From: Vicinamibacteria bacterium
GTDB taxonomy: Bacteria > Acidobacteriota > Vicinamibacteria > Vicinamibacterales > UBA2999
NCBI GenBank assembly: GCA_025938035.1
Contig: JAICQE010000052.1
Coordinates: 1 to 23,456, forward strand
DNA: 23,456 nt
Direction: 5' to 3'
This document shows positions 8,352-23,001 of the stretch, piece after piece (position 1 is the first letter of the stretch; each line of letters begins with the position of its first letter). The notes under the pieces are model-generated. The model was given only the letters and a program-made list of their open reading frames with translations, was not told where the DNA came from and made no database searches. Made by a program: the position numbers and the translations under genes.

Positions 8352-11300
8352 CTACGCCTGAGCTGCGACTCCCGGTAGGGTTTTTCGCGGCAGGGCGATG
8401 ATCTCGCTGAAGACCCCCTGCATCAGATCAACGTTGTCGGTCAGCACAGCGAACAGGTCGTCGTGCTCGATACGGAGCGCACGCCCGGGCTTCGTGACGA
8501 CGGCCCGTGCGCCGGCCGCGCCGCCCGACAGGGTTTCGACGAGACCGAAAGTCATCCCAGGTGCCGCCACAGCGACGCCGCGGTGCGTTTCGAGCTGCAG
8601 CTCGCCCTCGAGCACCTGGAACACCGCCGGCGGCGGGTCATCGGGCTCCACCAGCACGGTGCCCTCGGTCATCGGGATTTCCGCCGCCCCTTCGATCAAA
8701 GCCAGCAGCTGCGCGGGTGTGGCACGGGCCAGCAGCGGATGGTCGCGAAGCATGAGGGCCCGGTCGACTGGCCGCAGGAGCGAGACCGCCGGGTCGGATT
8801 GCATGGGATGTCTGACGTCCTGCCAGGAGGCGCGCGCGAGAAGCATGTGAAAGAGGCGCTCGGCGAGCAGTACGTTGCCCGACACCATGGTCAGCAGCTC
8901 TCCAGCGCCGATCCGCAAGCAGACGAGCGACTCGGCGGCTCGAATCGTGACGGCCGGCGGTGCGCCCTGCAGGACGTCCTCGAGGCCGAGGACCGCGGGC
9001 GCGCCGATCTCGCCCGCCGCGCCGGAGGGGTGGACGATCTGCACCGCACCTTCGATCAGAAACTCGACGTGCTCCGGCACGGCGCCGGGGTGAAACAACT
9101 CGCGGCCGGCGGGGTGACGCGCTTCCTCGCCCGCGGCGGCGATGCGGAAGAGCTCCTCGACGGACACGAACTCGAACAGCGGGATGGTGCGCACGCGATG
9201 CGCCAGCTCCACGATCGGCAGCGACTCGCTCGCCGCAACTCGCCCGGCGCGACGGAGTTGAAGCGCCCAGCTGGCCGCGGCGACCGCCGGCCGGCTGTCC
9301 GCGGCGCCATGGGTCAGCACGTACTCGACATCACCGGCCAGCGCCCACAGGTGGTTGTGAGCCACGAAGTGGACCGCCGCGGCACAGAGCACCGGGTCGT
9401 CGTCGTGCAGCACACGCGCCAGCGCGTCCTCGAGATCGCGCGGCCGCGTCTTGAGGGTGAGGTACGCGTGCCGAAGCCGTCCGGTGTCCGAGACTTCCTC
9501 GAGGATCGGCAGGACGCGCTTCCGGACCGCACCGGTCAGCAGGTTGTCCAGGTACTCCACAGCGGCGGCACGGCGCCGTCCGTCACCGTGCTCGATGGTG
9601 TAGCGCGCGGCGGCGACGTGATCGGTGTGGTAGAGCAAACCGAGGAGCCGGTAGATGCAATCGATCGCGTGGTCGAGGTGTTCGTCGAGCGCGCGGACCA
9701 GCAGCGTTCCGTGCGTGCGCGCGTCGCGCCGGAGATCGTGCGCTACGCACAGATAATTGCAATGGCGGGATGCCTCCCGCAGGACCGATCGTTCGATCAC
9801 GTCAGCCGGAAAGGCCAGCGAGCGGTGCTGCCGATGCAGCTTCTCGATGGCGGCGATCGCCTTGAAGCGCAGAAAGCGATCCGGATCCGCCAGCGCGCGG
9901 ATCAGCGCGTCCATCGCCGCCTGACTCGGGATCAGCGCCAGTGTGGCGGGGATGTGCCGCCGTACCCACAGGTCTTCGCGTGGATCGGCGAGCGCGTGCG
10001 CCAGCGCGTCGACAGCCGCGGCGCCGTATCCGACCAGCGCGTCACGCGCGGCCTTCTTCAGAACGCGATGTCCAAGCAGCGAAATCAGCGCCGGCAGGAA
10101 CAGCCCGTCCGCCGCGCCCAGCGTGCGGGCGCTGCCGATGGCGGCCTCGACGACGCGCGTGTCGTGGTCGTAGATGAGCGGAACCAGCAGCGGCCTGAAT
10201 CGCGGCGCGCTGACGTACGCCAGCGCCACGGCCACCTCACGGCGGCCCACGGCGCCGGCATCGCGCGCATCGGCGATCAAGCGCTTGAACGTCCGCTCCG
10301 CCGCCTCGACATCGCTGCCGACGCCCGACTGGGCAAGCCCCATCGCGGCGCTGACGACGACCTCGGGCTCCGGGTCACTGAGATGACGCCGCAGCACGAC
10401 GGCGGCATCCACGTGCGAGAACTCCGCGAGCGCGCGGAGCGCCGCCGCGCGCACGCCAACGTCGGGATCGTGCGTGAGCCGCTCGACCGCGGGCCGCCAG
10501 CGCCGCGCGATCTGCGAACGCACCGAACCAAGCGCGCGCAGCACGCGCGCGCGCACCTGCGGTGACTCGTGATGCAGCAGCAGAGGCGAAATGAGGTGCC
10601 GCTTGTCCAGGGTCTCCAGCATGCCGATCGCATAGAGCACTGCGGTCGGATCGGGATCCGAGAGCTCCTCGACCAGCGCTTCGACCGTCGCGGGGTCGCC
10701 GACGTCGACCGGGACCGAATCGACCTCGAGCGTGCGGGTGTCGAGACTCTGACGAAACATGTTCAGGTACTGCCGCCGGGCGGCAAGCGCGGTGGCGATC
10801 CACAACACCATGACGCCCACACTGGCGTAACTGAGCCGGCGCCAGTCGAAACCGAATCCCCACGGCTGGATCAGCACCAGGATGATCGCCGCCGTCACGC
10901 CCTTGGCAAACCGATCCATCGTGACATCGACAAACGGCTTGACCCGGTACTTCAGCTCGGAAGCCATCGGCAGGAACAACACTTCACGCGACGTCTTGTC
11001 CACCGTGTAGCGGAGGGTCGAATCGAAAACCCGCGCGGCTTGCGGCGCCCAGAACGCCCCGGTCAGCAGGATGATGATCGCCGCTGACCCGAGTGCAATC
11101 GGCAGCAGGACAAGGGCGAAGGCAAGACCGAACGATCGGTGAATGCGGCTCGTCACCGCGACCTGCAGCACGAAGCCGACGACCGAGGTGTAGACAATGA
11201 CCCGCGCGAGGAATGCCGCAATGCCGGCATCCCCTTCGAGGCCCTTGAACGCTTCGGCCGCCATGTTCAGCTGCTGTTCCACGATCGTCGCGGCGCCGGC

Positions 11301-12020
11301 CGCACAGGCCACGACGAGCGCGACGATCCGCAGGTGCGGAGACGCGAGCAGCAGACCGATCGCCTCCCGTCCACCGATGCCGGTTTCCTCGGGAAGCGGC
11401 CTCACGCCGCCGACGGCGTGGCGGCGGTTGATCGCCATGACCAGCGCCAGGCAGCCGATGAGTGTCGCCGCACTGACGAGAAGGAGACTGTCGGTTCCGA
11501 TCGCGTGGACGATGGTCGCCACAATCGTCGCACCCGCCGCTCCACCCAGACTGGCGCCGGCGCCGATGAAGCCGAACAATCGCTTGGCCTGTCTGGCGTC
11601 GTAGACCTCATTGGCCAGCGTCCAGAACTGGCTGATGAGAAGAATGCCGAGGATCTGGCCGAACAGGTAAAACGCCACGGCGACCCACTCGGCCCGTGTC
11701 CGCAGCAGGAGCGAGAAGACGACCAGAAGCACGACGATGGCCGCCTGCGTGGCGGGAATGACGTGCCGGCGCGCGAGCCGGCCGGTGGCCGCGGCGTACC
11801 AATGCATCACCACGCCGACGACGACCGCCCCGGCGAGCAGCACGTACGGGAGGTTGGCGGATCCGAGATCGGAAATGAACCTGGACCGCGTCAGCGGTTT
11901 GAGGATGTTGTAGGAGGTCATCGCCAGGAAGGAGTACGCGAACAGCAGCGCGGCGATGACGCCGTCGCCCTGGCGGAAGGCGAGCAGCGGCCCGGCAACC
12001 CGATTGGCCCAGTCCTTCAT
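8352..12020 (-). CDS. NTT-like nucleotide transporter fused to HEAT repeats and two cNMP-binding-like domains
   Basis: A 1222-residue three-part protein. Residues about 18-415 hold roughly 12 transmembrane segments of the Npt1/Npt2 (ADP/ATP translocase-like) type; SYNILKPLTRSRFI and FWTLANEVYDARQAKRLFGF are recognisable family patterns. Residues about 440-905 are HEAT-like helical repeats (DPDPTAVLYAIGML, DPDVGVRAAALRALAEF, DPEPEVVVSAAMGLA, DPDRFLRFKAIAAIEKL). Residues about 945-1060 and 1095-1205 are two cyclic-nucleotide-binding-like domains. Their phosphate-binding cassettes (1011-1030, 1158-1175) lack the usual Glu and Arg, so ligand binding is doubtful. This is the last gene of the operon, 43 bp after the RsbW-like gene. 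ATG at 12020 has no strong ribosome binding site. Transport of nucleotides is family inference; it may act as a sensor. Confidence 0.85.
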   Translation of the reverse strand: MKDWANRVAGPLLAFRQGDGVIAALLFAYSFLAMTSYNILKPLTRSRFISDLGSANLPYVLLAGAVVVGVVMHWYAAATGRLARRHVIPATQAAIVVLLVVFSLLLRTRAEWVAVAFYLFGQILGILLISQFWTLANEVYDARQAKRLFGFIGAGASLGGAAGATIVATIVHAIGTDSLLLVSAATLIGCLALVMAINRRHAVGGVRPLPEETGIGGREAIGLLLASPHLRIVALVVACAAGAATIVEQQLNMAAEAFKGLEGDAGIAAFLARVIVYTSVVGFVLQVAVTSRIHRSFGLAFALVLLPIALGSAAIIILLTGAFWAPQAARVFDSTLRYTVDKTSREVLFLPMASELKYRVKPFVDVTMDRFAKGVTAAIILVLIQPWGFGFDWRRLSYASVGVMVLWIATALAARRQYLNMFRQSLDTRTLEVDSVPVDVGDPATVEALVEELSDPDPTAVLYAIGMLETLDKRHLISPLLLHHESPQVRARVLRALGSVRSQIARRWRPAVERLTHDPDVGVRAAALRALAEFSHVDAAVVLRRHLSDPEPEVVVSAAMGLAQSGVGSDVEAAERTFKRLIADARDAGAVGRREVAVALAYVSAPRFRPLLVPLIYDHDTRVVEAAIGSARTLGAADGLFLPALISLLGHRVLKKAARDALVGYGAAAVDALAHALADPREDLWVRRHIPATLALIPSQAAMDALIRALADPDRFLRFKAIAAIEKLHRQHRSLAFPADVIERSVLREASRHCNYLCVAHDLRRDARTHGTLLVRALDEHLDHAIDCIYRLLGLLYHTDHVAAARYTIEHGDGRRRAAAVEYLDNLLTGAVRKRVLPILEEVSDTGRLRHAYLTLKTRPRDLEDALARVLHDDDPVLCAAAVHFVAHNHLWALAGDVEYVLTHGAADSRPAVAAASWALQLRRAGRVAASESLPIVELAHRVRTIPLFEFVSVEELFRIAAAGEEARHPAGRELFHPGAVPEHVEFLIEGAVQIVHPSGAAGEIGAPAVLGLEDVLQGAPPAVTIRAAESLVCLRIGAGELLTMVSGNVLLAERLFHMLLARASWQDVRHPMQSDPAVSLLRPVDRALMLRDHPLLARATPAQLLALIEGAAEIPMTEGTVLVEPDDPPPAVFQVLEGELQLETHRGVAVAAPGMTFGLVETLSGGAAGARAVVTKPGRALRIEHDDLFAVLTDNVDLMQGVFSEIIALPRKTLPGVAAQA

Positions 12021-12063: not shown

Positions 12064-12489
12064 TCATGACATGCGTTTCGTGAGACGCAGTCTGTTGGTG
12101 CCGTCCTTCCGCTCGTAGTTCATTTCATCGGCCAGCTCGCGCAGCAGGTGAAGTCCGACTCCGCCGATCGGGCGCTTCTCCGGAGGGAGCGACAGATCGG
12201 GACGCGGGGCCTCGAGCGGATTGAACGGACTGCCGTCGTCGATCACGTCCAGCCGCAACGTGCCCTCGCTCACGCTGAGAAGGAAATCGATCGTGTGATT
12301 GTTCGAGTCCTGGTAGCCGTACTTGATGCAGTTCGTGACGAGCTCTTCGATGGCGAGGCTGACGAGGTACATGGCCTCGAACGACACCTGCTGCTCCACC
12401 AGCCACGCCTCAGCCTGCACGGTGGCGGGTAGGATGGCGTCGATCGTACCAGGCACCTGCAGTGTCAGCGTTGCGGGGCTCGAACTCAT
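12064..12489 (-). CDS. RsbW/SpoIIAB-type anti-sigma factor serine kinase (HATPase)
   Basis: A 141-residue GHKL-fold protein. The N-box is AIEELVTNCIKYGY (Glu48, Glu49, Asn53), the G1 box DVIDDGSPFNP (Asp85, Gly86) and the G2 box GGVGLHLLREL (109-119). This is the compact layout of anti-sigma kinases that bind a sigma factor or phosphorylate a STAS-domain antagonist. ATG at 12489 overlaps the stop of the upstream STAS gene as ATGA, so translation is probably coupled; the open frame upstream of it lies inside the neighbour and is ignored. The adjacent STAS domain is the obvious substrate. No sigma factor is encoded nearby, so the final target is unknown. Confidence 0.9.
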   Translation of the reverse strand: MSSSPATLTLQVPGTIDAILPATVQAEAWLVEQQVSFEAMYLVSLAIEELVTNCIKYGYQDSNNHTIDFLLSVSEGTLRLDVIDDGSPFNPLEAPRPDLSLPPEKRPIGGVGLHLLRELADEMNYERKDGTNRLRLTKRMS

Positions 12490-14714
12490 GCGCGGCTTTC
12501 GATCTGCTGAATGGACCGGCAGATCAATGCGGCGCTGCAGGCCGCGTAGCGCTTGAGACGGGGCGACAGCTGTCGATAGCACACGACCGGGTACGTCCAC
12601 TCGAGCAACGCGATCCAGTACGGCACCATGTCCGTCTCGAAGAGCGTCGCGCGATCGGCGCAGCGCCGCAACAGGCTGATGCCGGCATGTGCGCGCGCCA
12701 CCATCGGATCGATGCCGTCGTACCGGAACGGAGGCGGCTGGTCGAGGGCGGTCACGCTCATCAGCGCCTCCTCGAATTCCACGAGCCGCCGCAGCTCCTC
12801 ATCGCTGTCCGGATCGATCATCTCGAACTTGAGCACCGGCTCCATCCGCGCGAAATCCGAGACCGCGTTTCTCGGCCGGGTCTCGGAAAAATCGATCACG
12901 TAGAGATTGTCACGCTCGTCGACGAGGATGTTTCTCAGATTGAGGTCACCGTGACAGACAGCCGTGTACCACAGTCGCGACTCCCGTGCGCGCCTTGGAT
13001 ATTCATGTTTGAGGAACCGGAAGGGGTTTGGAAGGCGGGTCCCGAGCTCAGGGCAGTCGAACTCCGGTGCGTCTGCCGGGATGCCCAGCACCTGCTCTGC
13101 GGTCTCGAACAGCGAGGGGAACAGGCGAAGCGGCGTGTGATCGCGGAAGAGGAACACCGGCTCCCATTTCGGCTGCCCGTACCACGGCTTGAGCACGCGC
13201 GTAAACACCTGCTCGAGGAGCGTCATGACTTCACCGACGGGGCGCTGCCGGTAATGATCGTAGAGCCATGCCAGCCGGCTGTCGGGTCCGTTGATGCCGA
13301 GGAAGTTGTAGCGCAGGCCAGCCCACTCGCCGACCTGGGCGTCGCCAAGGACGGTCGTTCCGTTGTTCAGAATGAAGCGCGACACGTAGTTCTGGTTCGC
13401 CTCCACCTCGCGCCGCGTCACCTCCGTTGCTCCGATCTTGACAACGCCCGGAAGCGTACGGCGGCCGTCCTGGTCGTACGCGACCGCCTTGAACGTGCTC
13501 GACATGAAGCCGCCGTGCAACGGCGTGAGCGTCACGGAACGGCAGTCGGCATAGAGGCGACGGATGATGGCGTCCCATTCCTGCCGCCAGGTGGCGTCGC
13601 CCTCGACGGTGACCTGCAGCAACTTGGCCGCGCCGCTTCTGATCTCGCGCGGCGCGAACACCCACACCAGCGCGTGCGTCACGGGCGGGCACGCGGACAG
13701 GGCCACGATGCCGCCGAGCGACTCGAGCGTCGCCTGACCGCGCAGGACGTCGTGGAGTTCGCCGGCGCCTTCCATGTCCGGTCGTTTCCGTAACGTGACG
13801 GCGCCGCCAATGAGGCACCGGCCCGACGGAAGCGGCGTGCCGCGCTCGAGAGGGGCATCCTGATCGAACGCGATTCCAGTAGCGAACACGCCGGGAGGTT
13901 GCCCATCGGTCCGCGCGAGCGCCGCAAAGCCGAATGCCGCCGACCCGGCCCCGGCGGCGTGTTCGAACAGCTCGTCCAGCGCATCGAACAGCGAAAAGCC
14001 GCTCGACGCCTCTAACTCCAGAATCGACGCCGGGGCTCCCGACAGCCCCCAGGCCGACGCGACGTCAATGGGCACGATCTGCGAGGCGTCGCCGACCACG
14101 AAATCGGTGACGCCGTCCGCGTCGGCATCGAGCACCGCGGTGAACTGCGGCGTGCTGACGAACTGTCCGTGGGCGCTGCCGCCTTCCGGCGTCGTAGCGC
14201 CGAGGCGTCCGATACCGAACGCCACCCCGAGATCGCCGGGGCTCAGGGTGAGAGGGGTCCATCGCTCGAGGGTGCTTTCCGCTCCGGTCAGATGGCGAAT
14301 CCGCGCGCGGCACCGGCTGGAGGTGACCTCGATCGCCGGAGCGAGCAGCGCCGCCGCGCGAGCCTTGAGGATTCCGCGCTCGACCGTCGGCTCGATCTTC
14401 CAAAAGCTGTCGAGGCGCGAGACCTCGAGCACCCGGCGAACGAGCGGCGCCAGCGCGGCGAGCACGAGGCCGCCATCCTTCGCCTTCAGCCGTGTTTCCA
14501 GTGAAACCAGCGAACGAATCCCGAGGCTGGAAAGATATGTGACGCCGGTGAAGTCGAGCACCCAGTGGGCGGTCTCAGTTTCGAGCGCGCCGGCCCGGTC
14601 ATCGAAGACTACGGCGGCAGCTCCGTCGAAACGGCCGGTGAGCGTCAGGACGGGAACGCCGGCTCCGAACGAGACCGCGATGTCCATGCGATGCGACATC
14701 TTACGATTTCGCAT
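12486..14714 (-). CDS. STAS domain fused to APH/TCAD9-like kinase
   Basis: A 742-residue fusion. Residues about 10-115 are a STAS (anti-sigma antagonist) domain; YLSSLGIR places the phosphorylatable serine at 62 or 63. Residues about 125-375 are of unknown type, with acidic DADADGVTDF and VVGDAS segments. Residues about 395-735 form an aminoglycoside-phosphotransferase-like kinase lobe pair: GGFMSSTF as nucleotide loop, Lys426 in VVKIG, HGDLNLRN (Asp590, Asn595) and VIDFSE (Asp608). All catalytic residues are present. The kinase part resembles the ternary-complex-associated domain TCAD9; that name is from memory. The stop overlaps the RsbW-like start as ATGA. ATG at 14714 is taken; ATGs at 14699 and 14687 are also possible. 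Gene order implies a phospho-relay controlling the last gene or a sigma factor elsewhere. Confidence 0.85.
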   Translation of the reverse strand: MRNRKMSHRMDIAVSFGAGVPVLTLTGRFDGAAAVVFDDRAGALETETAHWVLDFTGVTYLSSLGIRSLVSLETRLKAKDGGLVLAALAPLVRRVLEVSRLDSFWKIEPTVERGILKARAAALLAPAIEVTSSRCRARIRHLTGAESTLERWTPLTLSPGDLGVAFGIGRLGATTPEGGSAHGQFVSTPQFTAVLDADADGVTDFVVGDASQIVPIDVASAWGLSGAPASILELEASSGFSLFDALDELFEHAAGAGSAAFGFAALARTDGQPPGVFATGIAFDQDAPLERGTPLPSGRCLIGGAVTLRKRPDMEGAGELHDVLRGQATLESLGGIVALSACPPVTHALVWVFAPREIRSGAAKLLQVTVEGDATWRQEWDAIIRRLYADCRSVTLTPLHGGFMSSTFKAVAYDQDGRRTLPGVVKIGATEVTRREVEANQNYVSRFILNNGTTVLGDAQVGEWAGLRYNFLGINGPDSRLAWLYDHYRQRPVGEVMTLLEQVFTRVLKPWYGQPKWEPVFLFRDHTPLRLFPSLFETAEQVLGIPADAPEFDCPELGTRLPNPFRFLKHEYPRRARESRLWYTAVCHGDLNLRNILVDERDNLYVIDFSETRPRNAVSDFARMEPVLKFEMIDPDSDEELRRLVEFEEALMSVTALDQPPPFRYDGIDPMVARAHAGISLLRRCADRATLFETDMVPYWIALLEWTYPVVCYRQLSPRLKRYAACSAALICRSIQQIESRA

Positions 14715-14839
14715 GCCGATCGGGAGGAACTGCCGTACGAATGAAACGCCGGGGCGACACGAGGTCGCGCCGGTCCATCATGGTGCGAATCGATGGTAGG
14801 CTCTCAGTCGGGTTCTCCCAGGCACACGTGAGGTTGCAG

Positions 14840-15736
14840 ATGCCGCGGATCCTTGTGATGGGGCTCATGGCAGCCGGGCTCATGGCCTCGGCCGATATGT
14901 TTGCACAGGCGCCAGCTGCGCCCGAGCCCGGCATCGCATTCGAAGTCGCGTCCGTCAAACGCAACACCACCAATTCCGGCCTTTCGCGCTCCGCCGATCA
15001 ACCCGACGGCAGTTACTCCGCGGTCAACATGCCATTACGCACGTTGATCCTGTACGCCTTCCGGCTGCATCCGGTGCTCGATCGCGGGCGCGTCGTCGGA
15101 GCCCCGGCATGGGTTGAATCCGAGCGCTTCGATATCACCGCGCGCGCGCCCGCGAACGCGACCGCCGATCAGGTGTGGGACAGGTTGCGAACGCTGCTCG
15201 CCGATCGCTTCAAGCTCGCCGTCCACACCGAGCCGCGCGAGGGCCCGGTGTACGCGCTGGTTCTGGCGGAGGAGGCGGCCGCCATGCGGCCGAAACCCTC
15301 ATCGCTGGACTGTTCGGTCGCCGGCGGGCTGCAGACGTCTCTCGGACCACAACGCGAAACGGCGGTACGTCCAGGAGCCCCACCCCCGCCTGCCGTCCCC
15401 ACACGCTGCGGTCTCAGCTACGCAGTAGATGCGAACGGCAGCCTGGTCATCGGCGGCGCCCAGTCGATGGCCGCGTTGGCGCGAATCCTGGGCCGTCCAG
15501 CCGGCCGACCGGTCGTCGATCGAACGGGATTGTCAGGACTCTACGATTTCGTCCTCCGGTGGGCGCCCGAACAGCGGGGCAATGGCGGTGCTGGCGGCGC
15601 TGCGCCCGCTGCAATATCCGACGGACCATCTCTGTTCACCGCGCTGCGTGATCAACTGGGACTGAAGCTCGACGCTCAACGCGGTCCTGTGGACGTCGTG
15701 GTGGTCGACCGCGTCGAGCGGCCGACGCCTGACTGA
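14840..15736 (+). CDS. TIGR03435 family protein (secreted, function unknown)
   Basis: A 298-residue protein. ATG at 14840 is chosen because TGAGG lies 7 nt upstream and a signal peptide follows (MPRILVMGLMAAGLMASADMFAQ); the frame is open from 14741, but those 33 residues are not secretory. The family hallmarks are clear: FEVASVKRNT (after the signal), MPLRTLILYAF, GAPAWVESERFDITARAP, LRTLLADRFKLAVHTEPRE, VDRTGLSGLYDF, and the end LDAQRGPVDVVVVDRVERP. TIGR03435 proteins are greatly expanded in soil Acidobacteriota (Solibacter, Vicinamibacteria); their function is not known. It starts 126 bp from the divergent STAS-kinase gene, a gap that should hold both promoters. Confidence 0.93.
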   Translation: MPRILVMGLMAAGLMASADMFAQAPAAPEPGIAFEVASVKRNTTNSGLSRSADQPDGSYSAVNMPLRTLILYAFRLHPVLDRGRVVGAPAWVESERFDITARAPANATADQVWDRLRTLLADRFKLAVHTEPREGPVYALVLAEEAAAMRPKPSSLDCSVAGGLQTSLGPQRETAVRPGAPPPPAVPTRCGLSYAVDANGSLVIGGAQSMAALARILGRPAGRPVVDRTGLSGLYDFVLRWAPEQRGNGGAGGAAPAAISDGPSLFTALRDQLGLKLDAQRGPVDVVVVDRVERPTPD

Positions 15737-15913: not shown

Positions 15914-16615
15914 ATGAAGCGTGGTCTCCTCAACTCAATCTCGATCGCGTCGGCGCTGATCGTCGTCGCCTGGATCGCATGGGTCGTGCTCTTCCCGCCG
16001 CCACCGGTCGTCGTCGGGGCGACGAGTCTATCGGTTCCCTCACGTCCCGTCTCGATCGAGTCCGCCGTGCAGCAGGGCGCGTCGGATGCACCGGTAGTCG
16101 TGGTGGTCTTTTCAGATTTCCAGTGTCCTTATTGCGCGAGGCTGGCGCAGGGCACGATTCCGCAGCTGCAAAAGCGATACGTCGCCGCCGGGAAAGTGCG
16201 GCTGGTATTCCGTCATCTGCCGTTAACGACCATCCATGCCGATGCCATGCGTGCGGCGCAGGCTGCCGCCTGCGCCGGACGTGCGGGGAAGTTCTGGGAA
16301 ATGCATGACCGCCTGTTCGACGACCGACAGCGGCTGGGCGCGGCTGACATCGCGGCGAAGGCCAGGCGCCTATCGCTCGATGACGGATTCGAACGCTGCC
16401 TGACCGAGGAGACGGCGCGTGAGGAGGTCGAACGCGACATGGCCGAGGCACGGGCGCTGAGCATCGCGGCGACGCCCACCGTGCTCGTCGGACGGCCCGA
16501 TGACAGCGGCAGCGTCCGTGTGACGCATCGATTCGGGGCGATCCCCTTTTCGCAGCTCGCCGCCGCAATCGACGACCTTCTGAGCGGCGCCGCCGCGCAC
16601 AAAACGGGTGCATAG
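15914..16615 (+). CDS. Membrane-anchored DsbA-family thiol-disulfide oxidoreductase
   Basis: A 233-residue protein. Residues 8-27 form an N-terminal membrane anchor or signal; about 45-225 form a thioredoxin-fold domain of the DsbA/DsbG (Thioredoxin_4) type. The active site is FQCPYC (Cys71, Cys74), and the cis-proline loop is TPTV (Pro188). The helical insertion spans about residues 105-180, with an extra pair of cysteines (Cys120, Cys162). CPYC resembles the oxidising dithiols of DsbA more than the isomerase type. ATG at 15914 is preceded by AGGTGA. The gene for an 11-cysteine exported peptide begins 35 bp downstream, so disulfide formation in that peptide is the natural inferred role. Confidence 0.9.
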   Translation: MKRGLLNSISIASALIVVAWIAWVVLFPPPPVVVGATSLSVPSRPVSIESAVQQGASDAPVVVVVFSDFQCPYCARLAQGTIPQLQKRYVAAGKVRLVFRHLPLTTIHADAMRAAQAAACAGRAGKFWEMHDRLFDDRQRLGAADIAAKARRLSLDDGFERCLTEETAREEVERDMAEARALSIAATPTVLVGRPDDSGSVRVTHRFGAIPFSQLAAAIDDLLSGAAAHKTGA

Positions 16616-16640
16616 CCAGTAATCGGAAACCAATATTCCA

Positions 16641-16645
16641 GGAGG
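16641..16645 (+). promoter_or_regulatory. Strong ribosome binding site deciding the peptide start
   Basis: GGAGG ends 5 nt before the ATG at 16651. An out-of-frame ATG at 16646 and an in-frame GTG at 16648 are too close to it. This consensus site is among the best in the window, which fits a highly expressed precursor peptide. Confidence 0.75.
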
Positions 16646-16650
16646 ATGTG

Positions 16651-16917
16651 ATGAGGATTGCAGCGAAATACGTTTCACGGCTTCGACTGTCCCTCGGCGG
16701 ATTGGCGCTGGTGACGCTCTTCGGCTTCAGCGGCAGCGCCGTCAGGGCCTACATGTTTGAGGACTGTATCGAGGAATGTGGACCCTGCGTGGTATGGGCG
16801 CTCAACTGTGATTCGTGCACTGAATACAACGGCGGGTCGTGGTGCGAAGCGTGGGGCGAAGGATGCACCGAGGGCGGTTGCGACTGCGGCGGCGACCCCG
16901 GCTGGTACTGCTGCTAG
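16651..16917 (+). CDS. Secreted cysteine-rich acidic peptide (11 Cys)
   Basis: An 88-residue protein. Residues 1-33 are a classical Sec signal peptide (basic start, hydrophobic LGGLALVTLFGF, SAVRA before the likely cleavage). The predicted mature part, about residues 34-88, has 11 cysteines (39, 43, 46, 53, 56, 65, 72, 77, 79, 87, 88), 11 Asp/Glu, no Lys or Arg, many Gly and Trp, and ends in Cys-Cys. The odd number leaves one free thiol, a dimer, or a modified Cys. Two DsbA-like proteins flank it (15914 and 17779) and a peptidase follows. I recognise no family; disulfide-rich bacteriocins such as fulvocin C are a loose analogy. A metal-binding peptide is another option. A GC-rich hairpin follows at 16957-16988. 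Confidence 0.85.
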   Translation: MRIAAKYVSRLRLSLGGLALVTLFGFSGSAVRAYMFEDCIEECGPCVVWALNCDSCTEYNGGSWCEAWGEGCTEGGCDCGGDPGWYCC

Positions 16918-16956
16918 TCGATCCGCGGCCCTCACGCGAATTGCGGGCGGGTCGCT

Positions 16957-16988
16957 GCGCGTGCGCGCGGCGCGGCCGCCGCACGCGT
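16957..16988 (+). promoter_or_regulatory. GC-rich hairpin after the peptide gene
   Basis: GCGTGCG (16959-16965) pairs with CGCACGC (16980-16986), and GCGGC (16967-16971) with GCCGC (16975-16979); one C is bulged and the loop is 3 nt. A C-G pair and a G-T wobble extend the stem outwards. About 12 perfect pairs of almost pure G and C lie between the peptide stop and the next gene, without a T-run. It could protect the 3' end of the peptide message or attenuate read-through. Confidence 0.55.
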
Positions 16989-17013
16989 CACCACTACACG
17001 TGCAGGAGAAGTG

Positions 17014-17772
17014 ATGCGGACGGCGGCCGCAATGGTTTGTCTCATGGTCGTGGCTGCGATGCCCTCGGGCGCGCAATCCTCTGGCGCCACTGCAGCCGCG
17101 CGGCGACTCGCCGCGGCGCGGGAAGCAATCGGCGGCGGCGGCCGACTGCAGGCGATTACGTCGCTCGTCATCCGCGGCCAGGCCCGGCACCGCAACCAGC
17201 ATTACAAGAAGCGTCCAGGCGCCACGCGCGAGTGGATCGACCGGACGCTCGAGGTGCGCGCTTCATGGCCGGATCACTTCCTCATGATTGGCACGCTCGA
17301 TCTGGCCGGACGACGCGTCGAACACCGCGAGGGCTTTGCGGGCCAGAGCAGCCTGGCGGCAAAGTTCCAGGCCGCCTCGTATTACCAGATCGAATTCGCG
17401 CGGCGGATGTTGCTGCTGCTGCTGCGCACCGACACCGTGTTTCCGCTCACCGCAGTGTCAACCGCAGGACGCTCCGGCGCACTGGAGTTCACGGGCGCAC
17501 ACGAATTCCATGCGCACCTGGAGATCGATCCGCAAACCCGGTTTCCGACGCGATTGCGGTCGCGTCACCGTCGATTCGACGGACAGGGACGCCTTGCCAC
17601 GGGCATGATGCCGTGGTCGGTCGTCACCGTCGAGCGACGTGTCGCCGTCGGCGGGCTCACGGTTCCCGATCGGTTGCGTTACTCGGATGACGAGGGGCAG
17701 ACCCTGGCCATCGAGACCTACAGCTCACTGCAGTTCAACTCACCGTTGACGAGTGCGGATTTCCGGAGGTAA
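17014..17772 (+). CDS. Secreted LolA-like protein of unknown function
   Basis: A 252-residue protein with a signal peptide (residues 1-20, PSGAQ). ATG at 17014 follows AGGAG with 5-nt spacing; the GTG codon just before it is too close. The opening AREAIGGGGRLQAITSLVIRGQA is typical of acidobacterial proteins that share the half-barrel fold of the LolA/LolB lipoprotein carriers. Later segments alternate short beta strands (WIDRTLEVRASWPDHFLMIG, LEIDPQTRFPTRLRSRH), in keeping with that fold. In LolA-type proteins the concave face carries a lipid or hydrophobic cargo. Within this gene group it could bind or escort the exported peptide, which is inference. It ends 6 bp before the next start. Confidence 0.75.
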   Translation: MRTAAAMVCLMVVAAMPSGAQSSGATAAARRLAAAREAIGGGGRLQAITSLVIRGQARHRNQHYKKRPGATREWIDRTLEVRASWPDHFLMIGTLDLAGRRVEHREGFAGQSSLAAKFQAASYYQIEFARRMLLLLLRTDTVFPLTAVSTAGRSGALEFTGAHEFHAHLEIDPQTRFPTRLRSRHRRFDGQGRLATGMMPWSVVTVERRVAVGGLTVPDRLRYSDDEGQTLAIETYSSLQFNSPLTSADFRR

Positions 17773-17778
17773 TTGCCG

Positions 17779-18927
17779 ATGTCTGAACACCAAGCACCCG
17801 GACGAGCGCTGTACGTATTGCTCGTGTGCGGGATCGGCGCCGCAACGTTGTGGCTTGTGGCGATGGTTGCATCCTACGGGGTGGCAACGGCCACGCTTCC
17901 CTTCTGGCTTGCGCCGCACGTGAACACCCTGACGACAACCGCGAGATGGCGCGGTATCCCGGCCGAATTCTTTGAATTCGTCTGGGCGCTGACGGTCATC
18001 GCCGGGGCGATCGCGGCGCTGCGCGGCGATGGCGAACGACGGCGCCAGATCCTCACCGGGCTATTCGTAGGGAGCATTCCCTTGACGGGGCTTGCCCTGT
18101 GGCTGTCGATGCTGCTCCCACGGCCCCTCGCCGCCATGGTCGGCGGCGCGCTCGGGGCGATCGTCGTAGTGGTCAGCGCACACCAGGTACCTGCCCGCTG
18201 GCGGGGCGTTGCAATGGCGATCCGCGCCACACTGACCGCGCCAGCCGCAAGGACTACCGTCCTGGCCGGGCTCGCCGTCACAGTGCTTGCCGGGGAGATG
18301 ATCGGCGCCCGCACCCGCGCGCTGACGCCCGAGCAGGCGAAGGACCAGCTCTTTCGCCGCGGATGGGCGGCCACGCCGGTGACGGCCGCCCAGTTCACGG
18401 CCGACAACGCGATCCGCCTGGTTGTGTTCACTGATTACGAGTGTCCGTTCTGCAGCGCCGCGGTACCGCGCATGGATGAGACGATTGCCACCTTCACGAA
18501 GGATACCGGGCGATCGGTGGACGTCCTCATCAAGGACTACCCGCTCGAGTCCGAGTGCAACCGGGCTCGTTCCGACACTCTTCACTCGGCGGCCTGCGAG
18601 GCCGCCGCAGCCGTGCGGCTCGTACACCGCCAGCGCGGGCCGGATGCGGCCAAGGCCTTCGGCGTCTCGCTCTACGAAAACAACCGCCAGTTGCGGGATG
18701 CGGTCCGCCGCGGCATCGCGGAGCTCGGACTGAGTGCCGAGTACACGCGTGCGTATGCGTCCCTGCTGGACGAAGTCGCCGGCGAGGCTCAGCTCGGCGC
18801 CCGACTCGGAGTGCGGGGCACGCCGTCGTTCTTCATAAACGGCCGGTTGCTGCGCAACTGGCGGCGCCTGGACCTGGCGCTCCGGCTCGAACACGAGCGG
18901 ATGGCGCAGTCGAGTGGACAGCCTTAG
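17779..18927 (+). CDS. Multi-span membrane protein with C-terminal DsbA-like domain
   Basis: A 382-residue protein; GGAGGT at 17765-17770 sits 8 nt before ATG 17779. The N-terminal half has about five hydrophobic segments (approximately 11-33, 62-81, 92-113, 117-135, 158-175). The C-terminal half (about 195-372) is a DsbA/Thioredoxin_4 domain with ECPFC (Cys222, Cys225) and cis-Pro349 in GTPSFF; Cys260 and Cys273 lie in the helical insertion. The architecture recalls VKOR-DsbA fusions, which reoxidise the thioredoxin domain with quinone. However, the membrane part has a single cysteine (Cys17), so the VKOR redox cysteines are absent. It is either a different type of anchor or a degenerate VKOR. 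It lies 3 bp before the M28 gene. Confidence 0.85.
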   Translation: MSEHQAPGRALYVLLVCGIGAATLWLVAMVASYGVATATLPFWLAPHVNTLTTTARWRGIPAEFFEFVWALTVIAGAIAALRGDGERRRQILTGLFVGSIPLTGLALWLSMLLPRPLAAMVGGALGAIVVVVSAHQVPARWRGVAMAIRATLTAPAARTTVLAGLAVTVLAGEMIGARTRALTPEQAKDQLFRRGWAATPVTAAQFTADNAIRLVVFTDYECPFCSAAVPRMDETIATFTKDTGRSVDVLIKDYPLESECNRARSDTLHSAACEAAAAVRLVHRQRGPDAAKAFGVSLYENNRQLRDAVRRGIAELGLSAEYTRAYASLLDEVAGEAQLGARLGVRGTPSFFINGRLLRNWRRLDLALRLEHERMAQSSGQP

Positions 18928-18930
18928 CTC

Positions 18931-20280
18931 ATGACGCACACGTTCGCTGCCCGCCGCCACGTGCACGTCGCCATGATGCTGGCAGCCGTGAGTGTTCCGG
19001 CCGCGAGGGCACAGTCTCCGCCGCCGCCGGCAACGATGGCGCAATCAGTGCGCGGTCACATGGAGTTCCTCGCCAGCGACGCGTTGAACGGACGAGGGAC
19101 CGGCACGCGAGACGAATGGATCGCCGCGACCTACGTCGCCGCGCAGTTGCGCCGATGCGGCGTCGATCCCGCAGGACCTGACGGAGCGTATGTCCAGCTC
19201 GTGGACGCGCCGCCCCGCGCGCTGTCGGCGCCGCCGCGCATCGTGGTCGGCGCGGGCAACACCTATACCCACGGCCGCGAGATCTTCGTGCGGTGGGTCG
19301 GCCGGCCCGGCACTTCCGGCCCGCTCGTCAAATATACGGCCGGGCGAGCGATTCCGCCGCAGGCTGTCGTGTTGACGACCGCGGACTCGGAGCCGCCTCC
19401 AGAGATGCTCGCAGGCGCCGCGGCCATCCTCGTGGACGAGCCCGAGAGGGAACGCGCGCGGTGGCCGCTGCTTCCCAGGTTGCGTATTTCTCTCGCCCTG
19501 ACGCGCGAATGGAGAATCGCGGTGAGCCGCGACGTTTATGCACATCTCTCGAAGCTGCCCGAAGGCACGCCGGTGCGCCTCGAGGCGTCGTTCGAGACCG
19601 CCCGCACATGGAACGTCCTCGGCCAGCTGCGCGGCGCCGCGGAGGGACGCGATCAGACGATTCTCCTGCACGCGCATCTCGATCATCTCGGCAACAGGGG
19701 CACGGGCGCGGACTCCGTCTACAACGGCGCCGACGACGACGCGTCCGGGATCACCGCGGTCCTCGAGCTTGCGTGTGCGCTCGCGGCAATGCCGCGGACC
19801 GAGCGATCCTGGGTGTTCGCATGGTTTGGCGCCGAAGAGACAGGAGGCATCGGATCGCGCCATTTCGCCGAACAGGCGGCCCGACTCGATGGGCTCGTCT
19901 TCAGTCTCGGCTTCGAAATGCTCGGCCGGCCGGATCCGGAGATCGCTCCGCGCGTCGTCTGGCTCACTGGATACGACCGCTCCACGCTCGGCCCCGAGCT
20001 GTTGCGCCTCGGCGCCAATCTGGCGCCCGACCCCCATACTGAACAGCGCTTCTTCTTCCGCTCGGACAATATTCGGCTGGCGCAGCGGGGTGTCGTCGCG
20101 CACGCAGTGGCAAGCTTCGGCCTGCATGCGGACTATCACCAACCGACGGACGAGTTGTCGCAAATCGACGTTCCACATCTCGTCGAGGCGATCCGATCGA
20201 TGATCCTGCCGTTATGGACTCTGGCGAATTCTCGATTCGAGCCAACGTGGCATCCCGGCATGCAGCCGCCGGTGCGATGA
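18931..20280 (+). CDS. Secreted M28 family metallopeptidase
   Basis: A 449-residue exported protein (signal about residues 1-28, PAARAQS). The zinc aminopeptidase core occupies about residues 225-435. Ligands can be placed: HAHLDHL (His249, Asp251), NGADDDASG (Asp269), AEETGG (Glu302-Glu303) and DYHQPTDEL (His403). The fourth position is Glu329 in FEMLGRP rather than the commoner Asp. Residues 40-220 contain the partial protease-associated-like region seen in this family. M28 enzymes remove N-terminal residues from peptides in the periplasm or outside the cell. Its place in the group suggests trimming or breakdown of the cysteine-rich peptide, but a general nutrient role is equally consistent. 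The start has only a weak ribosome binding site, 3 bp after the previous stop. Confidence 0.9.
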   Translation: MTHTFAARRHVHVAMMLAAVSVPAARAQSPPPPATMAQSVRGHMEFLASDALNGRGTGTRDEWIAATYVAAQLRRCGVDPAGPDGAYVQLVDAPPRALSAPPRIVVGAGNTYTHGREIFVRWVGRPGTSGPLVKYTAGRAIPPQAVVLTTADSEPPPEMLAGAAAILVDEPERERARWPLLPRLRISLALTREWRIAVSRDVYAHLSKLPEGTPVRLEASFETARTWNVLGQLRGAAEGRDQTILLHAHLDHLGNRGTGADSVYNGADDDASGITAVLELACALAAMPRTERSWVFAWFGAEETGGIGSRHFAEQAARLDGLVFSLGFEMLGRPDPEIAPRVVWLTGYDRSTLGPELLRLGANLAPDPHTEQRFFFRSDNIRLAQRGVVAHAVASFGLHADYHQPTDELSQIDVPHLVEAIRSMILPLWTLANSRFEPTWHPGMQPPVR

Positions 20281-20298
20281 TAGGGAGGCGCTGACGTG

Positions 20299-21717
20299 AT
20301 GAACGAAGGCGGTTCGCCTGCCCGCCAGTTCTGTTCCTACAATCAGGAGCGCCTCCTGCTCAGTCAGGAGATCGCGCGGACGGCTGGGCGGAGGCCGCGT
20401 CGGCACGATTGGCCGATGGTCTTCCAATTACGTACGCTCGATGCGCGGCTGCTCGAACGGACCGTCAACGAGGTCGTCGCCCGTCACGACGTTTTGCGGA
20501 CCGCGTACGTTCCCGCGTGGTCCGGCGCCTCGGCGGCGCGCCAGTCACAACTGACCCGGTTCGCACGCACACAGCTCTTCACCTGCGGCATGTACGTTGC
20601 GCGCGTGGCCGCCGATGCGCAGGTGCGGCTGGAGCAGCTCGCCGTCAACGGATCCGCGGACGTGGACAACCCCGACATAGACGATCTCATCGATGACTGG
20701 AGCATCGTGCCCCTCGATCCCGGGCGAGCGCCGATCACCCGCGCAGCCGTCGTCTCGGGCGCGGGCAACACGCACTTGCTCCTGTTGCTGTTGTCTCACA
20801 TGGTGTGTGACGGCTGGTCGGTCTCGATATTCTGGCGCGAAATCGAGGACATTTACACCGCCGCCCTGGCAGGCCGGGCGCCCCGGCTACAGGAAGTCGG
20901 CATGCAGCACTCGCAGTTCGCGGCAGAGGAGCATGCCGCGGTCGACCACGGCCTCTTCACCGATTCCGTCGCCTACTGGTCGCGGCAGTGGGCGCAGCTC
21001 GGGCCCGCGCTCGTCCGCCATCGCGAGCTGCCATGCGCGTGTCACGGCGCTTCACCACTGGTGCCACCGGCAATTCGATCAGAACGGGTCGCCCTCGGTG
21101 CCATCATCGCGAACGCGCTGACGCAGATGTGTCGCACGCGGAACCTGACGACGTTTGCCGTCTTCAGATGCGCCGTGGCGATCGTGTTTCACCACCTCAC
21201 GAGCAAGGGGCAGGTGGCATTGTGGAGCAACTTCTTGAATCGCCCGAGCGTGAGCTCGCAGCGCATGATCGGCTGGTGCTCGAACGCCCACGCGCTCATG
21301 ACCGACATCGGTGCGGCTCGAACCTGCGACCATCTGGCGCGGCAAATCGCGGCGCAGATGTCGCAGGCGCATCAGCATCAACGCCTTTCGTTGCCAGCGT
21401 TGTGGCAGATCTTGGGACGCTGCCTCGAAGGGGGTGACACGCGGATCGTGTGCGACGTACAGGGCCGTTTTCGCGCCGGCGGACAGGGCATCATGGTTCC
21501 GATCGGATGGGCCCGGGGGCGCGAATGGACCGACCTCGACGTCCGGCTGCACGAGACTGACGCGGAGGTCGTCGTCACCTACGACAGCAATAGGTACGAT
21601 GCCACGGGCGTGGCCGCGATGGCGCGCGCCATCCACCATACCCTCGCGGCAATGACGGCGGACATGGACTCCCCCATTGACCGCACGCGTGAGGCAATTG
21701 ACGCCGTATCCGCCTGA
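20299..21717 (+). CDS. Stand-alone condensation-domain protein (NRPS C-domain fold)
   Basis: A 472-residue protein without signal peptide or membrane span. It follows the condensation-domain pattern end to end: SYNQERLLL near the start, RTVNEVVARHDVLRTAY, LLLLSHMVCDGWSVSIFWREIEDIY, SNFLNRPSVSSQRMIGWCSNAHAL. The active-site motif HHxxxDG reads SHMVCDG: the catalytic second His (His167) and Asp171 are kept, the first His is Ser. No adenylation or carrier domain is nearby, so it is not part of an NRPS here; free-standing members act as acyl- or aminoacyltransferases or ester-forming enzymes. ATG 20299 is taken; GTG 20296 is equally possible, with GGGAGG at 20283-20288 serving both. Last intact gene of the group, 18 bp after the M28 gene. 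Confidence 0.85.
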   Translation: MNEGGSPARQFCSYNQERLLLSQEIARTAGRRPRRHDWPMVFQLRTLDARLLERTVNEVVARHDVLRTAYVPAWSGASAARQSQLTRFARTQLFTCGMYVARVAADAQVRLEQLAVNGSADVDNPDIDDLIDDWSIVPLDPGRAPITRAAVVSGAGNTHLLLLLLSHMVCDGWSVSIFWREIEDIYTAALAGRAPRLQEVGMQHSQFAAEEHAAVDHGLFTDSVAYWSRQWAQLGPALVRHRELPCACHGASPLVPPAIRSERVALGAIIANALTQMCRTRNLTTFAVFRCAVAIVFHHLTSKGQVALWSNFLNRPSVSSQRMIGWCSNAHALMTDIGAARTCDHLARQIAAQMSQAHQHQRLSLPALWQILGRCLEGGDTRIVCDVQGRFRAGGQGIMVPIGWARGREWTDLDVRLHETDAEVVVTYDSNRYDATGVAAMARAIHHTLAAMTADMDSPIDRTREAIDAVSA

Positions 21718-23001
21718 GTGGCATCGCGCCGGTCGTCCGCCGAAGCCGATGGCCGCACGCTGCGCGTCGCGCTGGTGCAATACGCCTCCCTTCCGGCTCT
21801 GGACGATGGCATAAAAGGGGTGACCGAGGCCCTCAGGGCCCGCGGATACGTGGACGGCGGACCATGGCCACGGCAAACGCCATCGCCAGCGAGGTGACGA
21901 GCAGCGACTTCGATCTGATTATTTCGGCGTCGACGGCGTCGCTCCAGACGATTGCCAACGCAAACCGGTTTGCCACACTGCCACGAAGGCACGTGTTCGG
22001 CCTGACGTCGTATCATCTCGACCATCCTCCCTACATGACAGGCCTGGGCAGCCTGCCTCCGGTCGAGGACGCGTTCCGGCTGGCACGGGAGCTCAAGCCC
22101 GACTTGAAGCGCGTTGGCCTCGTCTGGAACCCGAACGAGGCGAATTCCGTTGCCGCAACCAACCTGGCGCGAAAGGTTTGCGGCGACCTTGCGATTCAAC
22201 TGATCGAAGCGAACGCCGAAAACGCGACGGCGGCCGGTGAGGCCGGCGCGTCGGTGCTGTCACCGGTGGCAGATTCCAGCGGCAATCTTCACGCCGGCCG
22301 ACGTGCTGTTCGACGCGTCCGGCGGGCATGCGAAGGCGCCTGCGGCGGTCTCGATGAAGAAGAAGACCGTCGATCTGATCATCATCGGGACGAACGGGTC
22401 CGGGAAGTCAACGCTGCTCAACGCCGTCGCGGGCTCCTTCAGCCTGACGTCGGGGCCATCAGGCTGGCCGGCCACGCCATCACGAACTGGCCCGAGCACC
22501 GGCGCGCGAAGTACATCGGCCGCGTGGTTCAGAACCCCTTCAGCGGCACGGCGCCGACGATGTCGATTGCGGAGAATCTGGCGCTGGCGTCACGCCGCGG
22601 CAGGCGGCGCGGGATCGGCTGGGCGGTGAACCGGCGCGCTGCCGGCGAGCTCCGCGATCGGATCCGGACGCTGAACATGGGCCTCGAGGATCGCCTCGAC
22701 AACGCGATCGGCAGCCTGTCCGGCGGCCAGCGCCAGGCGCTCACGCTGCTGATGGCGTCGTGGCTCAAACCGGACCTGCTGCTCCTCGACGAACACACCG
22801 CCGCCCTCGATCCGAAGAGCGCCGATCATGTCATCCGCCTCACGCACGACATCACCGAGCGGGACAAGCTCACGGCGCTGATGTGACCCCTTCAATGCAC
22901 AGGCGGTGAATCTCGGCGATCGGATCGTCATGATGCAGGTCCGCCGGCGCGAGCAGCTCGACGCGTCCGTTGCCGAGATGCTCAAGCGCGACTACGTCTG
23001 A
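21718..23001 (+). pseudogene. Remnant of a TrpXYZ-type ABC transporter (binding protein plus ATPase)
   Basis: 21718-21850 encodes a binding-protein N-terminus (LRVALVQYASLPALDDGIKG) without signal peptide. The frame then shifts, and 21864-22262 continues with MATANAIASEV to RVGLVWNPNEANS after a short deletion. The rest of the binding protein, the permease and the ATPase N-terminus are missing. At about 22351 the ATPase resumes in another frame with the P-loop GTNGSGKS (Lys at 22405). A one-base loss in the GGGG at 22455-22460 moves it to the first frame, which holds LSGGQRQ (22716-22736) and LLLLDEHTAALDP. A stop at 22884 follows a lost G. The H-loop reads VTPSM instead of VTHSM. After another frameshift the C-terminus (RRREQLDASVAEML) ends at 23001, with about 24 residues deleted. 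Clearly non-functional. Confidence 0.85.

Follow-up and report, generated by a model that had tools for sequence, protein, structure and literature searches.

What is the function of a six-gene row in which a membrane-anchored DsbA-type protein (DsbA1) is encoded just ahead of a small secreted peptide containing 11 Cys, within a 23,456-nucleotide stretch (hereafter, the window) of contig JAICQE010000052.1 from a Vicinamibacteria bacterium (GCA_025938035.1)? The answer we favour, at a probability of about 0.65, is that the first two genes constitute a unit of their own, i.e., a membrane-anchored DsbA-type oxidase together with its dedicated substrate. Close relatives of DsbA1 in other genomes also tend to adjoin Cys-rich exported proteins, of several families; this recurrence points to an enzyme reserved for a single substrate. 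The features of the pair are as follows:

15914-16615, plus strand: dsbA1, with an N-terminal transmembrane (TM) anchor and a DsbA/Thioredoxin_4 domain (Pfam, solved DsbA relatives, clade alignment and tree)
16640-16645, plus strand: Shine-Dalgarno sequence AGGAGG of the peptide gene (direct sequence reading)
16651-16917, plus strand: secreted, acidic 11-Cys peptide (homologue P0002 with 11/11 Cys; signal called by eye and crude rule)
16651-16749 and 16750-16914, plus strand: signal peptide and mature part, respectively, of that peptide

DsbA1 matches Pfam families Thioredoxin_4 (PF13462, 2.3e-30) and DSBA (PF01323, 2.3e-16), as well as solved DsbA structures (down to 1.8e-18). It carries a CPYC active site (16124-16135), a cis-Pro in the context TP, and two further Cys that are conserved in the clade alignment; by the combination of CxxC and cis-Pro, it is classed from its sequence as a DsbA-type thiol oxidoreductase. 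Its best NCBIfam match is NF041057 (Rcas_1661 family thioredoxin-like (seleno)lipoprotein), yet at 111 bits this falls under the 190-bit cut-off, and DsbA1 has CPYC without an in-frame TGA. Eight DsbA relatives at loci in other genomes of the phylum (L280, L283, L284, L286, L287, L288, L289 and L291) do possess an in-frame TGA at the first active-site Cys (Q*PFC or similar), the pattern expected of selenocysteine; NF041057 denotes a (seleno)lipoprotein family of this sort.

For the peptide, direct reading places AGGAGG five bases 5' of the ATG. Residues 1-33 are signal-like and Sec-type, ending in AVRA (by eye and a crude rule), while the mature part comprises 55 residues, of which 11 are Cys, another 11 are Asp/Glu and none is Lys/Arg/His. 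The peptide is also rich in Trp/Tyr/Phe and contains CxxC pairs. The preliminary description had held that the grouping would be down to chance if the open reading frame (ORF) lacked conservation of its Cys; these are conserved, with 11/11 kept in each of the database relatives P0001 (99% identical) and P0002 (64% identical). Given the Shine-Dalgarno sequence, the Sec-type signal, and relatives with all 11 Cys, the ORF is a real gene and no chance ORF. A pattern scan, within its sensitivity, found no relative in genome_contigs or viral_contigs, and the class of G003, represented by 193 genomes, yielded none that is credible (by "class" we mean the genome group returned for the class of G003). 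A crude scan of 1.68 Mb of DNA, in which small ORFs had to begin in a Sec-like manner and encode at least 7 Cys, returned the window peptide and 7 others, most of the latter implausible by eye.

The evidence for pairing comes instead from the DsbA side. The DsbA1 search matched 169/193 genomes of the class at E 1e-15, and neighbours were scored as Cys-rich secreted ORFs on the same strand within 500 bp of a DsbA gene. The first 40 loci comprised ranks 1-20 of this search and a further 20, mostly shorter-framed, taken lower in the list; hits with long frames became control B, and 20 more short-frame loci were drawn from lower ranks. Control set C took the best match to DsbA2, the second DsbA-like protein of the row, at each of 20 loci (VKOR-DsbA-type places), and 576 ORFs of 200-420 residues from the same 100 loci served as a random control. 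Such a neighbour was present at 16/63 short-frame DsbA1 homologues (60 loci), as opposed to 1/20 long-frame DsbAs, 0/20 VKOR-DsbA-type places and 6/576 random ORFs. Earlier rules, applied to the first 40 loci plus the window, had given 9/43 places versus 153/6848 random positions (ORFs of at most 170 residues, within 1.5 kb) and 11/43 places versus 26/7599 random positions (at most 350 residues, within 1.2 kb).

The neighbours are concentrated in one part of the DsbA phylogeny. A maximum-likelihood tree built from 84 DsbA domains places the window sequence inside a 16-member clade (support 99/93, and 98/90 after 20 more rows were added), of which 11/16 members have a Cys-rich neighbour, versus 7/68 outside it. 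With the window removed, the clade scores 10/15, which differs from random ORFs (p 1.7e-14), from the other short-frame DsbAs (6/48; p 1e-4) and from all other DsbA places tested (7/108; p 3e-7); counting each locus once, with L181 entered a single time, leaves 8/13 (p 1.1e-11 against random ORFs). Several of the distances between DsbA gene and neighbour are <100 bp, two of the pairs overlapping. At L181 (G113:C2:3000-22500), three clade DsbA genes occur within ~14 kb, each with its own Cys-rich secreted ORF (22, 30 and 8 Cys). Adjacency to a Cys-rich exported ORF thus recurs across the relatives of DsbA1, within one class.

Could this be by-catch, in which variable genome regions accumulate both quickly evolving DsbA copies and genes for Cys-rich secreted proteins, without any functional tie? 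The long branches of the clade and the presence of ADOP permeases in these regions would fit such a scenario, but random ORFs of the very same loci rarely score, and neither the short or overlapping arrangements nor the three separate pairs in L181 would be expected of it; we thus hold it to be unlikely. With regard to the permeases, ADOP-type duplicated proteins occur in the vicinity of clade DsbA genes in L178, L182, L183, L194 and L198 (TIGR03434, 5/5 under the family cut-off), and TIGR03436 VWFA proteins in L176, L178 and L181 (the last below cut-off), with background rates not fairly measured for either; ADOP permeases are an abundant acidobacterial family.

Several points nonetheless weigh against a dedicated enzyme-substrate pair. 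Under the rule, 5/16 clade members lack a neighbour: in L198 and L180 one sits ~0.75 kb and ~2.3 kb off, respectively, i.e., beyond the limit, L176 and L182 are without any, and L200 ends at a contig edge ~270 bp upstream. Since the rule was widened to admit larger proteins after a first look, it is partly tuned on the first 40 loci; these contribute 14/42 places, compared to 2/21 in the 20 further short-frame loci, with one of these two in the clade. Signal peptides of the neighbours were called by a crude rule, and the counted neighbours in L187, L189 and L174 are doubtful by eye. A phylum-wide sample with the clade model (20 loci in E-value order, 19 of them outside the class set and one a new place in G113, with a second hit in L288 left out) scored 0/20, and none of these places falls in the clade, such that the pairing is unreplicated beyond one class-level group; membership of the window itself in that class is presumed. 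The end branches of the clade are long (~0.4-1.6), so attraction is possible. Lastly, as the Cys number of the peptide is odd, at least one residue would have to be free, intermolecular or modified.

The proteins encoded beside these DsbAs are themselves heterogeneous. In a first batch of ten partners, nine went without a Pfam match at E<=1 and one was collagen-like. In a second batch of six neighbours, which includes one in L209 that was spotted by eye and left out of the counts, 5/6 had some Pfam match at E<=0.01 (e.g., TSP_3 and M19), one of the five only below curated cut-offs. Some larger neighbours form families among themselves, and two of the L181 partners resemble each other and the partner in L230. 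The eight partners with <90 mature residues, window peptide included, are all net acidic with 7 to 11 Cys. Compared to the window peptide, P0002 is clearly alike, whereas among six small neighbour peptides only that of L178 is alike, and weakly so, with the other five dissimilar. As neighbouring peptides are mostly unlike that of the window, the constant element is the DsbA clade and not the peptide. Outside the clade, DsbA genes in two loci have immediately after them an ORF for a large secreted protein (L192:9996-14057 and L210:10234-14376) that carries 30-33 Cys and stretches resembling M19, which may represent a similar pairing with giant substrates.

This diversity also bears on the notion that the peptide binds metal in the manner of a metallothionein, with the DsbA genes merely managing its thiols. 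CxxC pairs, 11 acidic and zero basic residues, and an odd Cys count would all suit a metal ligand; abundant Trp/Tyr/Phe would not, an oxidase of the type encoded alongside would remove free thiols, and 5/6 of the other neighbouring peptides tested do not share its sequence. Metal binding is accordingly quite improbable in our estimation.

Under the dedicated-pair explanation, the peptide would be exported via Sec, and in the envelope DsbA1 would pass disulfides from its CPYC site to the 11 Cys of the peptide; its own re-oxidation would be carried out by a housekeeping VKOR-DsbA protein encoded elsewhere, as other genomes of the presumed class suggest. More tentatively, and with somewhat less than even odds, the anchored-DsbA clade may evolve in one acidobacterial lineage as one-enzyme-one-substrate cassettes with changing exported disulfide-rich proteins, many of them family-less, and sometimes as tandem cassettes. 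If so, the DsbA clade could be used to search for an as yet undescribed arsenal of bacterial peptides rich in disulfides, the 11-Cys peptide of the window among them. Finding small peptides of this type is difficult, as they have little sequence in common and often go uncalled as genes; should the clade mark them, its neighbourhood would offer a direct way of listing them, and DsbA substrate choice would become testable with natural enzyme-substrate pairs. Among open PMC papers, none describing such a pairing was found by title or abstract opening.

By analogy with BdbB and sublancin, and with what has been suggested for DsbL/DsbI, the partner of which is an arylsulfate sulfotransferase, the pair most likely corresponds to a dedicated oxidase and its substrate. 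The sublancin operon of Bacillus subtilis is arranged as sunA-sunT-bdbA-sunS-bdbB, with BdbB forming the two disulfides of sublancin and BdbA being dispensable (PMC6391423). There, a thiol-disulfide oxidoreductase is encoded with a Cys-containing exported peptide, as in the window; however, sublancin is a glycocin exported by SunT whereas the window peptide has a Sec-type signal, and members of the DsbA clade are accompanied by Cys-rich ORFs from several families. Pfam and NCBIfam scans detected neither a glycosyltransferase nor a peptidase-ABC (ATP-binding cassette) exporter among the six window genes, and for this reason the system was not filed under glycocins, the glycocin/sublancin type being rejected. 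DsbL/DsbI of uropathogenic E. coli is portrayed as an extra DsbA that is maybe dedicated to a specific substrate group (PMC6067686). In this the window pair may be similar, but the six window genes lack a DsbB/DsbI-like gene and the clade neighbours are Cys-rich secreted proteins. Bacterial cis-defensins, one of which is reported from Acidobacteria, resemble the window peptide in being small, Cys-rich and bacterial; the available text of that paper contains neither the word thioredoxin nor oxidoreductase (PMC11561630).

How, then, do the remaining genes of the row relate to the pair? They are:

17014-17772, plus strand: secreted LolA/LolB-superfamily-like protein, link to the pair unproven (relative P0004 at 46%, weak fold matches)
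17779-18927, plus strand: dsbA2, with ~five TM-like segments and a DsbA domain, link to the pair unproven (Pfam, TM reading)
18931-20280, plus strand: secreted M28 metallopeptidase, link to the pair unproven (PF04389 at 7.3e-34, aminopeptidase relatives)
20296-21717, plus strand: stand-alone condensation-domain protein, link to the pair unproven (PF00668 at 7.2e-33)

The preliminary description had treated all six as one candidate system for making and oxidising an exported peptide. Its account of the layout holds, as the six ORFs are tightly packed on the plus strand with gaps of 35, 96, 6 (or 0), 3 and 15 bp in order, and Pfam agrees with its labels for 4/6 (DsbA1, DsbA2, M28 and condensation), the peptide and the LolA-like protein having zero family matches at E<=1. 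The proposed co-occurrence was retained only in part. When 40 of the 60 short-frame DsbA1 loci were searched by tblastn (E 1e-3) with eleven window proteins, including the six, the LolA-like protein, the condensation protein and the window peptide had zero matches, M28 had one (L194, opposite strand), and those of DsbA2 fell only on the DsbA1-like genes themselves. What recurs is DsbA1 with a Cys-rich neighbour, mostly no homologue of the peptide; the four extra genes are rarely alongside in these collections. For those four, this is the outcome that the preliminary description had named as refuting the grouping, as far as the collections reach; for the pair, it did not arise in spirit. The notion of disulfide-folding machinery reserved for a Cys-rich Sec substrate gains independent support for the DsbA1-peptide pair but not for a whole six-gene pathway.

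In such a pathway, DsbA1 and DsbA2 would both oxidise the peptide after its export, M28 would trim it, the LolA-like protein would carry it, and the condensation enzyme would serve to modify it. The shared strand and short gaps speak for it, as does the resemblance of the M28, LolA-like and DsbA proteins to envelope proteins. Conversely, no second copy of the set was found in the loci and genomes searched, which leaves the pathway unproven; no signal peptide is seen on the condensation protein, which could then reach a peptide that leaves via Sec only ahead of its export, and its best match in the 193 genomes (26%) is a stand-alone protein inside an NRPS-like (non-ribosomal peptide synthetase-like) cluster. 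We therefore deem a six-gene pathway improbable. Beside the two-gene unit, the four downstream genes may be passengers, and may share its transcript.

Taken individually, the "LolA-like" label is a weak fold call: the AlphaFold model has a predicted local distance difference test (pLDDT) score of 55 and zero Foldseek matches at E<=0.001, and its first six hits include DUF1329 (E 0.008), LolA3 and LolB (E 0.008-0.09), interspersed with unrelated folds. Besides its own copy, P0004 is the one protein-database relative, with partial matches only in 24/396 genomes of the phylum. The M28 protein is assigned to the M28 peptidases by PF04389 and metal-ligand motifs, with HLD, GADDDASG and EE aligning with a solved aminopeptidase and the last ligand placed by eye only. 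In the condensation protein, SHMVCDG (20794-20814) replaces HHxxxDG and aligns with HHIVSDG, identifying a predicted NRPS condensation domain that keeps the catalytic second His.

DsbA2 starts at the ATG at 17779 (TTG 17773 also being possible) and has a DSBA match (7.2e-9) C-terminal to its TM-like segments, with CPFC at 18442-18453. Its five-TM-plus-DsbA layout and an extra Cys in the DsbA domain are common to VKOR-DsbA fusions; these, however, have a VKOR domain with four Cys, whereas DsbA2 does not match VKOR in Pfam at E<=1, and the four redox Cys (loop pair plus CxxC) are missing from it. Profile comparison of its N-terminal part with VKOR gave a weak match (P 19% over 26 columns), which is suggestive only of a VKOR-derived membrane part; DsbA2 is possibly a VKOR-DsbA fusion that lost its four VKOR redox Cys. 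The DsbA2 model matches 162/193 genomes of the class at E<=1e-12, and of five right-frame proteins from the ten best loci, 5/5 have the VKOR Cys, with 3/3 of those Pfam-scanned matching VKOR (~4e-27 to 5e-27).

Elsewhere in the window, a TIGR03435/DUF3738 protein (14741-15736) lies directly upstream, ending 177 bp ahead of dsbA1, and is assigned by NCBIfam to the Soli_TIGR03435 paralogue family, which is acidobacterial. Downstream, a single ORF (21864-22886) is part ABC substrate-binding protein and part ABC ATPase, as though deletion had eroded a transporter operon. On the minus strand, an HATPase_c_2 protein beside a STAS protein with the Pfam ternary complex associated domain TCAD9 (1.3e-44) occupies 12067-14714, a possible anti-sigma or conflict-type regulatory pair, and 8355-12020 encodes a 1222-residue protein combining a TLC ATP/ADP-transporter-like domain, HEAT repeats and two cyclic-nucleotide-binding stretches.

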